Notes under the pieces: generated by a model
The model's database searches: none
Seen by the model: only the letters and a program-made list of their open reading frames with translations
Told to the model about the DNA's origin: nothing
Part shown: piece after piece, positions 27,481 through 57,462 of the stretch
How positions within the stretch are numbered: the stretch's first letter is position 1
Layout: the number at the start of each line of letters is the position of its first letter
DNA from: Pelagibacterium flavum
GTDB taxonomy: Bacteria; Pseudomonadota; Alphaproteobacteria; Rhizobiales; Devosiaceae
Direction of reading: 5' to 3'
NCBI RefSeq assembly: GCF_025854335.1
Contig: NZ_CP107716.1
Span: forward strand, 2,349,001 to 2,413,000
Length of the DNA: 64,000 nucleotides
Made by a program: the position numbers and the translations under genes

Positions 27481-27850
27481 TGTCACCCCGGCCACCGAGC
27501 CGGGGTTCGGTACATTCAGCGCCCAATGCAGAGCCGCGAGCGCTGCCGGTTACTGGGTCCCGGGTCAAGCCCGGGATGACAGCGGTTGGTTGCGCAGCCA
27601 CACTGCATCTCCCTCTGTCACCCCGGCCACCGAGCCGGGTCCAGTACGCTCAGCGCCCAGCGTAAGCCACAAGCGCTGCCGATTACTGGGTCCCGGGTCA
27701 AGCCCGGGATGACAGCGGTTGGTTGGGCAGCCAAACTGCATCTCCCTCTGTCACCCCGGCCACCGAGCCGGGATTCGGTACATTCAGCGCCCAATGCAGA
27801 GCCGTGAGCGCTGCCGGTTACTGGATCCCGGGTCAAGCCCGGGATGACAG
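27481..27850. repeat. Tandem array of three REP-like elements
   Basis: Three copies of a ~134-bp unit begin at 27481, 27616 and 27749, each opening TGTCACCCCGGCCACCGAGC and ending CAAGCCCGGGATGACAGCGG. Within a unit, two hairpins of opposite sense flank a middle with TACATTCAGCGCCCAATGCA-type sequence; copies differ at only a few sites. The array fills most of the 27435-27943 gap between recO and era; I see nothing else in that gap. Confidence 0.9.
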
Positions 27851-49004: not shown

Positions 49005-50525
49005 TCAGCTCCATGAACGCTTCTCGATGAAGATCAGCGCCGGGTTTTCCAGCAGGCGCTTGAGGCGCTGGATGAATTTAGCGGCGTCGTAGCCATCGAC
49101 GATGCGGTGATCGAAGCTGGACGAGAGGTTCATCATGGTGCGCACGGTCACCTGATTGTTGATGAACACGGGGCGGCCCATGAGCTTGTTGGGGCCGATG
49201 ATCGCCACTTCGGGGTGGTTGATGATCGGGGTGGCGGCAACGCCACCCAGAGCGCCGAGGCTGGTCAGGGTGATGGTGGAGCCCGAAAGCTCGTCGCGGG
49301 ACGCCCTGCCCTCGCGCGCCGCGTTGGTGACCCGGCTCATCTCGCGGGCGCAATCCCAGATGTCGAGCGCCTCGACGTGGCGGACGACAGGGACCATGAG
49401 GCCTTCGGCGGTTTGCGTGGCAATGCCGATATGGATGGGCTCGAACTGGCGCAAGACGCCCGCTTCGGCGTCGTAATGGGCGTTGACGTGCGGAAACTCG
49501 GGCAGCAATTGCGCAAGCGCCCGCATGAAGAAGGGCAAAAGCGTGAGCTTGGGCTGGGCGCCCTGGCGCGAGGCGTTGATCTCCCGGCGCAGCCCTTCGA
49601 GAGCGGTCATGTCGCAATCCTCCACATAGGAGAAATGCGGGATGGAGCGGGCGGAGAGTTCCATGCGCTCGGCGATCTTTCGACGCAGGCCGATGATCTT
49701 TTTCTCGTGGACGCCCTGGCGCTCGCGGGCGGCGGGCTCGGGCGCCCTGGACTTGAGATGGGCATCGAGGTCGGCATCGGTGATGCGGCCTTCGGGGCCT
49801 GTACCGATGACGTAGTTGAGGTCGATATCGAGATCCTCGGCGCGGCGGCGGGTGGCCGGGGCGATGAGGATTTGGTGGTGGGGAGTGGGTTTGGACTCTG
49901 CGCTTGTGGCCCGCTCTGCCTGGACTCCGGGAACAGGCCCCGGAGTGACAGGTTGGGGGTTGGGAGACGCTGAAGACTGGGCCGCGGGCGCTTCTCCATC
50001 CCCTGTCATCCCGGCCTTGAGCCGGGCTCCATCAGGCTCGGAGGATGGAGTTCTCTCACCGGCGCCGGGGGTACTGAGTCCCGGGTCTTCGCCCGGGATG
50101 ACGGGGGTGGGTGGGACGGCGGAGGGGGATGGAGCCGCAGGCGCTTCTTCTTCCCCATCGCTTCCCCGGTCAAGGCCGGGGTCCATGGGTGCTTGCCGTT
50201 CGCTCGCCGGTTCGCTTCGGCTCGGGCGGGCACCGGCATTCGCCGGGGAAGCGGGGGGTGGGGCGGCCTCTGCCTCCGCCTCGCCTTCGATCTCAAGCTC
50301 GACCAGAACCGAGCCGACGGGCGCCTTGTCGCCTTCGGCGCCGAATAGTTTGAGCACCGTGCCGGCGACCGGCGAGGTCATGTCGATTGTCGCCTTGTCG
50401 GTCATCACGTCGACGAGCGTCTGGTCCTCCTCGACGTGGTCGCCGACCTTGACGTGCCAGGCGGTGATTTCGGCTTCGGCGACGCCTTCGCCGATATCGG
50501 GCAAGCGGAAGGAATAGGTCTTCAT
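49005..50525 (-). CDS. bkdB: Branched-chain 2-oxoacid dehydrogenase E2 (dihydrolipoyl acyltransferase), linker built from palindromic elements
   Basis: 506 residues from the ATG at 50525 (4-nt overlap with the E1 beta stop). Lipoyl domain about 1-78 with lipoyl Lys44 (MTDKATIDM); peripheral-subunit-binding domain about 218-258 ([32 protein letters not shown]); catalytic core from about 275, with [10 protein letters not shown] near the C terminus (HRxxDG). The linker 80-218 is unusually long; residues about 92-123, 142-174 and 192-202 are translations of three REP-like palindromes. No E3 gene is nearby. Confidence 0.94.
49920..49952. repeat. REP-like hairpin inside the E2 gene (third)
   Basis: CTGGACTCCGGGAACAGGCC, then CCGGAGTGACAGG. 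Read on the coding strand it gives [11 protein letters not shown] (about residues 192-202) of the E2 linker. The intergenic counterpart at 47782 has the same layout. Confidence 0.75.
50005..50102. repeat. Complete REP-like element inside the E2 gene (second)
   Basis: Opens GTCATCCCGGCCTTGAGCCG and closes with CCCGGGATGAC, like the intergenic elements at 23727 and 51596. It is read as [12 protein letters not shown]...RLKAGMTG, residues 142-174. Its length and position keep the reading frame open. Confidence 0.85.
50159..50252. repeat. REP-like element inside the E2 gene (first)
   Basis: Opens GCTTCCCCGGTCAAGGCCGG and ends CGCCGGGGAAGC, with a GTCCATGG/CC core. It is the same subtype as the unit at 57434 downstream of the PQQ dehydrogenase. 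Read as [11 protein letters not shown]...[11 protein letters not shown], residues 92-123 of E2. Confidence 0.8.
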
Positions 50526-51595: not shown

Positions 51596-51710
51596 GTCAT
51601 CCCGGCCTTGAGCCGGGAGCCAGTACGCTCAGAGGATGCGGAACGCGCCGCGGAGGACAGATTTCCGACGCCGAGGGTACTGGGTCCCGGGTCTTCGACC
51701 GGGATGACGC
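51596..51710. repeat. REP-like element between E1 alpha and E1 beta
   Basis: GTCATCCCGGCCTTGAGCCG at the left and CCGGGATGAC at the right flank a middle with GTACGCTCAG and GGTACTGGGTCCC. It shares its left arm exactly with the copy inside the E2 gene. Confidence 0.85.
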
Positions 51711-55554: not shown

Positions 55555-57309
55555 ATGACCAAAACCAGACAATTACTCAGCTTATTGGCAGTCGCCGCAT
55601 CGTCGGTTTCACTATTGGCCGTACAGGCCGGCGTTGCCCAGGACAGTCCGATCGACGATCTCACGCCGGTCACTGACGAAATGTTGAATAATCCGCCCGA
55701 CGGCGACTGGCTGATGTGGCGGCGCACATATAACGGCTGGGGCTACAGCCCGCTCGATGAAATCAACAAGGACAATGTTGGCGATCTGGAACTGGCCTGG
55801 GCCTGGGGCATGTCTCCGGGCGGACGGTCGCAGGAAACGCCCCTCGTTCATGACGGAATTCTGTATCTCCAGAACTCGAGCCATCTCATCCAGGCCCTCG
55901 ACGGGGCCACGGGCGAGTTGATCTGGGAGTATGAGTACGAACTCCCCGATGAGGTGAATCCCAACGGAGAGCGCAGCAAGGCGATTTACGATGACAAGCT
56001 GATCATCGCCACTCGCGATGCGCATCTGATTGCGCTGGATGCCAAGACCGGCCAGCTGATCTGGGACAAGACGGTTGCCAACTACGAGCACGGCTTTGCT
56101 TTCTCCAGCGGACCTATCGTTGCGAACGGCGTCGTTGTCCAAGGCATGACCGGGTGCAGCAACGCTCAACCCGGCGGCTGCTTCTTTACCGGGCACGACG
56201 TGGATACCGGTGAGGAATTGTGGCGTGTCCACACCATCGCCCGCGGCGATACGCCCGAGGGCAATAGCTGGAACGGTCTCCCCCTGGAAAGCCGCTATGG
56301 CGCATCGGCCTGGATCACCGGCTCTTACGACCCCGAGCAGAACCTGATCTTCGCCGGCGTCGGACAGCCCTATCCGTGGAACGTCGAGATCGCGGGGCTG
56401 ACTCCCCCGAGTTCGGATCCCAACGTCACCAATGAGGCACTCTACACCAACTCCACACTTGCCATCGATGTGACCACGGGCGAGCTCGAATGGTACCACC
56501 AGTATCTGGAGACCGACTCTCTGGACCTCGACTATGCCTATGAGCGCATATTGGTGGACCTGCCGTTCAACGGCGAGATGCGGCAACAGGTGGTGACGAC
56601 CGGAAAGATCGGCATTATCGAGTCGCTCGACCGGACGACGGGTGAATGGCTGTGGGCCCAGGAGACCGCACCGCAGAACGTGGTGCTTTCTATCGATCCG
56701 GACACCGGCGAAAAGGAGATCAACCCCGAGGTCATTCCGGTGATCGGTGAGACCACCTTCAACTGCCCGGCCGACCCGGGCAGCAAAGCCTGGCAGGCCA
56801 CGGCATACAGCCCACGGACCGAGACCCTGTATCTGCCAACGGTTGAGTTCTGCTCCAACACCACGGTCAATCCGCTCGATCCGGGTGAGATTTACACCGG
56901 TGGCGGGCTGCAGACCTTTGCTCGCGTGCCGCATCCTGATGGCGATGGCAATATCGGGCAAGTCCGTGCCATCAACCTCGTGGACCAATCGGAGGTTTGG
57001 CAGTATCGGCAATATGCACCAGTCACCAGCGCAACCCTGCCGACTGGTGGCGGGCTGGTGTTCGTTGGCAGCCTTGATCGCAAGTTCATGGCCTTCGACG
57101 ACGAAACTGGCGAAAAGCTCTGGGAAAGCGGGCCGTTGAGCAATTCGCTCGAATCCTTCCCGATTTCCTACGAGGCGGGCGGCAAGCAATATGTTGCCGT
57201 TGTCGCGAACTGGGCCTCGGGTCTGGGCCGCCTGGCATCGCTGACCCCGGACATCCGCCTGCCGTCGGACAATCCGGCAACACTGTATGTGTTTGCGCTT
57301 CCCGACTGA
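55555..57309 (+). CDS. Periplasmic PQQ-dependent dehydrogenase, methanol/ethanol-dehydrogenase family
   Basis: 584 residues from ATG 55555 (GGAGGAGG upstream); signal peptide cleaved near GVAQ|DS. Eight-bladed quinoprotein propeller with repeated W-docking motifs (LDGATGELIWEYEYE, LDAKTGQLIWDKTV, HDVDTGEELWRVHT, FDDETGEKLWES). The catalytic-Asp region reads SLDLDYA: Asp324 with Asp326 two residues on, the pattern of lanthanide-type (XoxF/PedH) enzymes. The usual metal ligands look changed: GxGNP is GVGQP (Gln271), the Glu loop is a GC...GC loop, and no vicinal Cys-Cys is seen. Substrate, probably an alcohol, is unknown. Confidence 0.88.
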   Translation: MTKTRQLLSLLAVAASSVSLLAVQAGVAQDSPIDDLTPVTDEMLNNPPDGDWLMWRRTYNGWGYSPLDEINKDNVGDLELAWAWGMSPGGRSQETPLVHDGILYLQNSSHLIQALDGATGELIWEYEYELPDEVNPNGERSKAIYDDKLIIATRDAHLIALDAKTGQLIWDKTVANYEHGFAFSSGPIVANGVVVQGMTGCSNAQPGGCFFTGHDVDTGEELWRVHTIARGDTPEGNSWNGLPLESRYGASAWITGSYDPEQNLIFAGVGQPYPWNVEIAGLTPPSSDPNVTNEALYTNSTLAIDVTTGELEWYHQYLETDSLDLDYAYERILVDLPFNGEMRQQVVTTGKIGIIESLDRTTGEWLWAQETAPQNVVLSIDPDTGEKEINPEVIPVIGETTFNCPADPGSKAWQATAYSPRTETLYLPTVEFCSNTTVNPLDPGEIYTGGGLQTFARVPHPDGDGNIGQVRAINLVDQSEVWQYRQYAPVTSATLPTGGGLVFVGSLDRKFMAFDDETGEKLWESGPLSNSLESFPISYEAGGKQYVAVVANWASGLGRLASLTPDIRLPSDNPATLYVFALPD

Positions 57310-57433: not shown

Positions 57434-57462
57434 CCATGGACCCCGGCTCTTGCCGGGGAAGC
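57434..57462. repeat. REP-like hairpin upstream of the XoxJ-like gene
   Basis: CCATGGACCCCGGCTCTTGC followed by CGGGGAAGC; one half-unit of the same subtype as the first element inside the E2 gene. Confidence 0.7.

Follow-up and report, generated by a model that had tools for sequence, protein, structure and literature searches.

How palindromic repeats that lie mostly between genes may come to be translated within a conserved enzyme is the question raised by one E2 acyltransferase gene in the window, i.e., the whole 64,000-nucleotide stretch of DNA analyzed here. Three palindromic segments, designated C, A, and B, lie in the interdomain linker of this gene. Judged from the sequence, it is very likely that in-frame insertion brought REPs into the flexible E2 linker, where they would have been tolerated as the frame was kept and would then have drifted.

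Host gene and palindromic segments of its linker

The host gene belongs to the branched-chain 2-oxoacid dehydrogenase (BCKDH) complex (Table 1) and is by inference bkdB; homologous proteins of relatives carry the source name "2-oxoisovalerate dehydrogenase E2 component." The source genome, G000, is one contig of 3,930,456 bases and was assigned to Pelagibacterium, the genus of the closely similar named proteins and loci; a 99% identical locus was found in an assembly titled Rhizobiales bacterium UBA3584. The Pfam matches span residues 6-77 (lipoyl domain), 219-253 (E3-binding domain), and 273-499 (catalytic domain), from which it follows that all three segments, in the order C, A, B in the E2 orientation, are inside the linker (residues 79-218), with approximately 75 of its 140 residues encoded by them. 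The first-pass annotation had located the palindromes at 49920-50252, corresponding to residues 92-123, 142-174, and about 192-202, and had attributed to them about 75 of roughly 140 linker residues; the positions were correct and the share agrees with the Pfam domain limits. It had also described one palindrome type present three times. Three segments are indeed there, but the GTCATCCCGG/CCGGGATGAC type is found in the middle segment A only. AlphaFold2 was set aside as a measure of linker disorder, since the prediction from a 27-row alignment had a mean pLDDT of 41, with the folded core below 50, and was uninformative.

Table 1. Positions of the E2 gene, the palindromic elements of its linker, and the neighboring intergenic element (window coordinates)
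Feature	Position	Strand	Residues	Description
E2 acyltransferase gene, branched-chain 2-oxoacid dehydrogenase complex (host gene)	49005..50525	-		506 aa; lipoyl, E3-binding, and catalytic Pfam domains
Element B	about 49920..49949	-	about 193-202	Single hairpin, GTCACTCCGGG monomer (GTCACTCCGGGGCCTGTTCCCGGAGTCCAG)
Element A	50005..50102	-	142-174	CGTC-type REP dimer GTCATCCCGG...CCGGGATGAC, 98 nt
Element C	about 50159..50253	-	about 92-123	Palindromic dimer GCTTCCCCGG...CCGGGGAAGC
Intergenic A element	51596..51708	-		113 nt; between putative E1 alpha and E1 beta ORFs, 1.5 kb upstream of the copy in the linker

Repetition, class, and genomic position of the elements

With E no higher than 0.001 and 40 of 86 candidates scored, the linker DNA (49912-50262, 351 bp) matched its own genome at least 55 times, self included, whereas an equal-length control from the catalytic part of E2 matched itself alone (40 of 53 candidates scored). 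Among the matches listed, most lay on A and two, at other places in G000, lay on C. The GTCATCCCGG motif was present at 71 sites in G000, compared to 2 for the reversed pattern. The exact 10-mer of C was found 23 times in G000, as was its reversed control, and C is weakly repeated in this genome. In the relative G008, the count for C was 41 against 23 for the control, one other place matched 108 nt of C at 75%, and the E2 copy forms a 23-nt perfect inverted repeat, a length attained in 0 of 200 synonymous resamplings.

Palindromes could also be a by-product of Pro/Ala/Gly-rich linker codons in a genome of 62% GC, and some of the resampling agrees with this. In the window linker, the hairpin coverage was attained in 12/200 and the longest inverted repeat in 60/200 resamplings, and the coverage in G001 (37/200) and P. 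limicola (30/200) was unremarkable. Palindromicity alone is not decisive for the window linker, and the case rests on homology to dispersed repeats. The coverage was attained in 1/200 resamplings in G008 and 0/200 in P. luteolum, with its 64 nt of hairpin arms, and the P. lentulum linker gave 1/200 for coverage and 0/200 for the longest hairpin. The dispersed matches contradict a codon by-product, as do the perfect inverted repeat of G008, the hairpin arms of P. luteolum, and the REP-like tag and tail, and we regard this explanation as extremely improbable.

In G000, a stem starts directly after GTC at 45/71 exact A and 23/30 exact B sites, by a test that tolerates at most one mismatch and does not score the first A-T pair separately; the counts below refer to these hairpin sites, with the remaining 26 A and 7 B sites left out. 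The tag was CGTC or TGTC in 38/45 A and all 23 B hairpins, the best stem was 8 bp in 41/45 A and 9 bp in 16/23 B hairpins, and a CCA tail followed within 4 nt of the stem in 39/45 and 22/23, respectively. Loops of A were 4-5 nt in 29/45, 6 nt in 15/45, and 3 nt in one case; those of B were 5 nt in 16/23 and of other lengths in 7/23. The three linker hairpins also pass the strict stem test, A being tagged CGTC at one end and TGTC at the other and B carrying TGTC. Elements A and B fit the alphaproteobacterial CGTC REPs described in section 6 of PMC3733652, except that the loops of A are often 6 nt, one above the 4-5 nt given there. Element C has the terminus CGCTTCCCC with no CGTC/TGTC tag, and it is classed only as a REP-like palindrome. 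The Y1_Tnp domain of RAYT transposases (PF01797), which goes with RAYT-borne (GTAG) REPs, was detected in none of 13 Pelagibacterium genomes and in 5/14 of the control set, in agreement with PMC3733652, in which CGTC REPs are described as lacking a dedicated transposase.

The gene context was analyzed for A and B in G000 and for A in P. luteolum. Elements were searched as exact 10- or 11-mers only and genes were called with our own codon log-odds script; in G000, every exact A site (71) and exact B site (30) was classified by script from its flanking sequence, and sites within called ORFs were inspected individually. Only 3 A and 2 B of the 68 strict hairpins in G000 (45 A and 23 B) were within called ORFs, three of these five being in the E2 linker. 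The other two were rejected as coding hosts: the A site L051 is in a 606-aa ORF without a Pfam match, taken as an antisense shadow ORF, and the B site L131 is in an 890-aa ORF, also without a Pfam match and taken as a shadow ORF. The 14 of 71 exact A 10-mers within called ORFs comprise two of the E2 element, L051, and eleven non-strict sites, among which at least the ORF of L045 has no Pfam match; for B, 6/30 sites are within called ORFs, the strict two being the E2 copy and L131. L034, one of the eleven and located in a DctP-family gene, was discarded as a coding copy of A, as it passes a looser stem score and fails the strict hairpin test.

In P. luteolum, 100 of the 117 A sites were read; 75 were strict hairpins, and 4 of these were within called ORFs, two of them in E2. 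Candidates rejected in this genome were L170 (a weak 77-aa ORF) and L177 (a 632-aa ORF), both without a Pfam match, and L146 (a TctA gene) and L197 (a Mem_trans gene), which passed the looser score and failed the strict test. When the elements inside genes were counted, as the first-pass annotation had proposed, all strict A and B hairpins in credible genes of G000 and P. luteolum were those of the E2 linker; at the sites examined, neither genome has another credible coding host. The OGDH-type E2 of G000 (L138) gave no exact CGTC-type match in its linker region, and none was found in loci L013, L014, L017, and L137; L023 has one such match, approximately 1.5 kb beyond its E2 match. Element lengths modulo 3 were not restricted to one class. 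Frame 0 was open in 30/42 readings in G000 and 34/64 in P. luteolum, a mild excess over the interior-shuffled values of 0.41 and 0.36.

The intergenic A element upstream of E2 (Table 1) might serve as a nearby donor in gene conversion, and the E2 copies of G061, G008, and G001 each have an A-type element at an equivalent distance. The window, which amounts to 1.6% of the genome, holds 11 of the 71 exact GTCATCCCGG sites. Three A-type elements with a spacing of about 134 nt are in tandem at 27482-27848, outside called genes, and a lone C-type unit is located at 57435-57462, immediately beyond the called gene 55615-57309.

Presence in relatives and constraint on the segments

Thirteen Pelagibacterium genomes were searched with the linker DNA; nine have this E2 gene, all nine copies were read whole, and the reading frame is open in 9/9. 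Element A is in the E2 linker of G000, G061, G008, G007 (P. luteolum), and G001, in whose genomes GTCATCCCGG occurs 71, 65, 53, 117, and 48 times, respectively. It is absent from the linkers of G010 (P. lacus), G005 (P. lentulum), G003 (P. limicola), and G006 (P. xiamenense), which gave no match to the linker DNA and have 19, 14, 16, and 12 GTCATCCCGG sites. Among the gene-bearing genomes, A is thus in the linker of 5/5 relatives with the A family and 0/4 without it, a split whose odds would be 1 in 126 for independent genomes. The nine are not independent; the comparison is confounded by phylogeny, since G000 and G061 are one species and the tree is compatible with a single origin of A. The same residues in relatives without the family would have counted against insertion according to the first-pass annotation, and all four such relatives lack the A residues. 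The genomes G002, G004, G009, and G011 have distant E2 matches only (35-38%), and for this reason G009 and G011, in which the A family is present, are uninformative on the correlation. The abundance of element families varies sharply among Pelagibacterium species, and G002 has 105 palindromes of a further family, D, and 59 GTCAYTCCGGG sites with just 19 GTCATCCCGG sites.

The alignment and motif table identify the linker as the free region of E2. A full A was present in P0003 and P0005 and, by eye, in P0004. In the linkers of P0007, P0015, and P0016, the two halves of a B dimer each have a matching peptide, and the flanks are similar by eye to those around A in G001 and P0012. The P0002 linker contains one C half and one D piece. 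In P0006, the flanks of P0003 are kept and A is gone except for a residual GMT, which points to deletion; a clean empty site was not seen among the linkers compared. The P. luteolum linker carries a 165-nt (55-codon) in-frame tandem duplication, 80.6% identical, in which two A halves and two D pieces are arranged, and a third A-like piece was noted by eye; the D pattern has 26 copies in this genome and 0 for the reversed control. A tree of the conserved parts of E2 calls for 2 changes in A and 2 in B and is compatible with one origin of each element; 13 of 30 inner branches are well supported, with labels assigned by us and 15 of 34 rows in neither group. The BCKDH E2 linker might be a genus-wide accretion site, in which A, B, C, and D would have been repeatedly captured, swapped at shared flanks, and duplicated in frame under selection on linker length or flexibility, with REPs supplying the material; we consider this rather unlikely.

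The linkers measure 85-169 residues in the five A-bearing genomes compared to 49-74 in the four A-less ones; long linkers without recognized elements were found in P0026 (104 residues) and P0008 (95 residues). Such lengths, the differing element sets in one linker across several lineages, and the in-frame duplication of P. luteolum would also be expected if the segments had been recruited by selection for a longer or more flexible linker extending the reach of the swinging arm, with REPs as ready material. However, element-free relatives manage with short linkers, and survivorship alone predicts the pattern, as the linker may be among the few places where insertion is harmless. The constraint on individual residues of A, which is weak, also argues against recruitment. 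Between G000 and G008, the lipoyl domain had a dN/dS of 0.05 and the catalytic part one of 0.07, compared to 0.81 for the linker; the 33 codons of A showed 2.0 synonymous and 12.0 nonsynonymous differences, numbers so small that the omega above 1 is not to be taken as positive selection, and C showed 6.0 and 9.0 (omega 0.46). Between G000 and G061, A had 0 synonymous and 2 nonsynonymous differences. Element A is under little amino acid constraint, with strongly constrained flanking domains, and C is under intermediate constraint and is not clearly neutral. We judge recruitment clearly unlikely; the linker pattern resembles tolerated, weakly constrained filler.

By analogy with REPs elsewhere, which are thought to be RNA elements (PMC3733652), the hairpins could act in the E2 message, slowing ribosomes between domains or setting mRNA stability, with the peptide incidental. 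The excess of nonsynonymous over synonymous differences in A would suit such a role, although the numbers are small. Against it, the hairpins are not preserved across relatives, the first half in G001 being altered in the stem, and four species are without A; we hold an RNA role to be very improbable.

In-frame insertion followed by tolerance and drift would have proceeded as follows. CGTC-type REPs, mostly intergenic, would have entered the E2 linker in frame during the history of Pelagibacterium, with more than one palindrome family contributing. The linker would tolerate them because no particular linker sequence is required. Copies keeping the frame would survive, be translated as Pro/Gly/Ser/Asp-rich segments, and subsequently drift or undergo in-frame duplication or deletion. 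We infer from sequence that insertion was the change, that tolerance prevailed over selection, and that translation continues across the segments.

The central proposal of the first-pass annotation, genomic palindromes in frame in the linker between the lipoyl and binding domains, is thus supported by repeat homology and the comparative pattern, which point to insertion, and codon-level conservation, which would have spoken against it, was not seen in A between G000 and G008. Its further proposal of ongoing exaptation has to be revised. "Ongoing" holds as far as the genus-wide turnover seen in the differing element sets and the P. luteolum duplication and no further, and "exaptation" is at odds with A residues that drift about as freely as neutral sequence, a near-neutral drift that suits tolerated filler better than a recruited function.

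Comparison with known coding palindromes

Rickettsia palindromic elements (RPEs) had been named in the first-pass annotation as the known precedent, which proved too narrow. Every alphaproteobacterial order has species in which CGTC REPs are reported (PMC3733652, Di Nocera et al. 2013); in several species, REPs are located within genes, with clusters encoding 43-82 residues, and the authors already propose tolerance in flexible linkers or loops. Elements A and B of the E2 linker share with them the CGTC/TGTC tag, an 8- or 9-bp stem, a short loop, and a CCA tail, the organization in dimers, the lack of a known dedicated transposase, and the location of some copies inside ORFs. The E2 case differs from the REPs as presented in PMC3733652 in that several families contribute to a single linker throughout a genus and that no other credible coding host emerged from the sites examined in two genomes. 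The string "dihydrolipo" has 0 occurrences in the main text of PMC3733652, whose in-gene cases are listed in its Additional file 3. No title describing the E2 linker case was found in the literature search, which left most subscription papers and all supplements outside.

Comparative support here exceeds that of a single-genome case, and the concentration in one linker is unusual. Close relatives provide a natural series (none, one, several, duplicated) in one conserved enzyme, in which passengers can be tested against useful protein material in free-living rather than obligate intracellular bacteria. Repeat-derived sequence in the E2 linkers of these bacteria should be kept out of homology and phylogeny work.

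RPEs, of which RPE-4 and RPE-6 are CGTC REPs (PMC3733652, section 6), are 105-146 bp long and are present in 19 reading frames (PMC2229807). As with RPEs, palindromic elements are in frame within a conserved protein, where they would have arrived by insertion; unlike RPEs, they occupy one gene in each of the two genomes examined. By analogy, the E2 elements would work like RPEs, and membership in that group is not claimed. Palindromic element-like inserts of Wolbachia, in addA, addB, and priA (PMC4224334), are likewise in-frame palindromes mostly leaving the gene open, although in other host genes, and the likeness is one of description. With coding REPs already known (PMC3733652, PMC2229807), the E2 linker is a well-documented further example.
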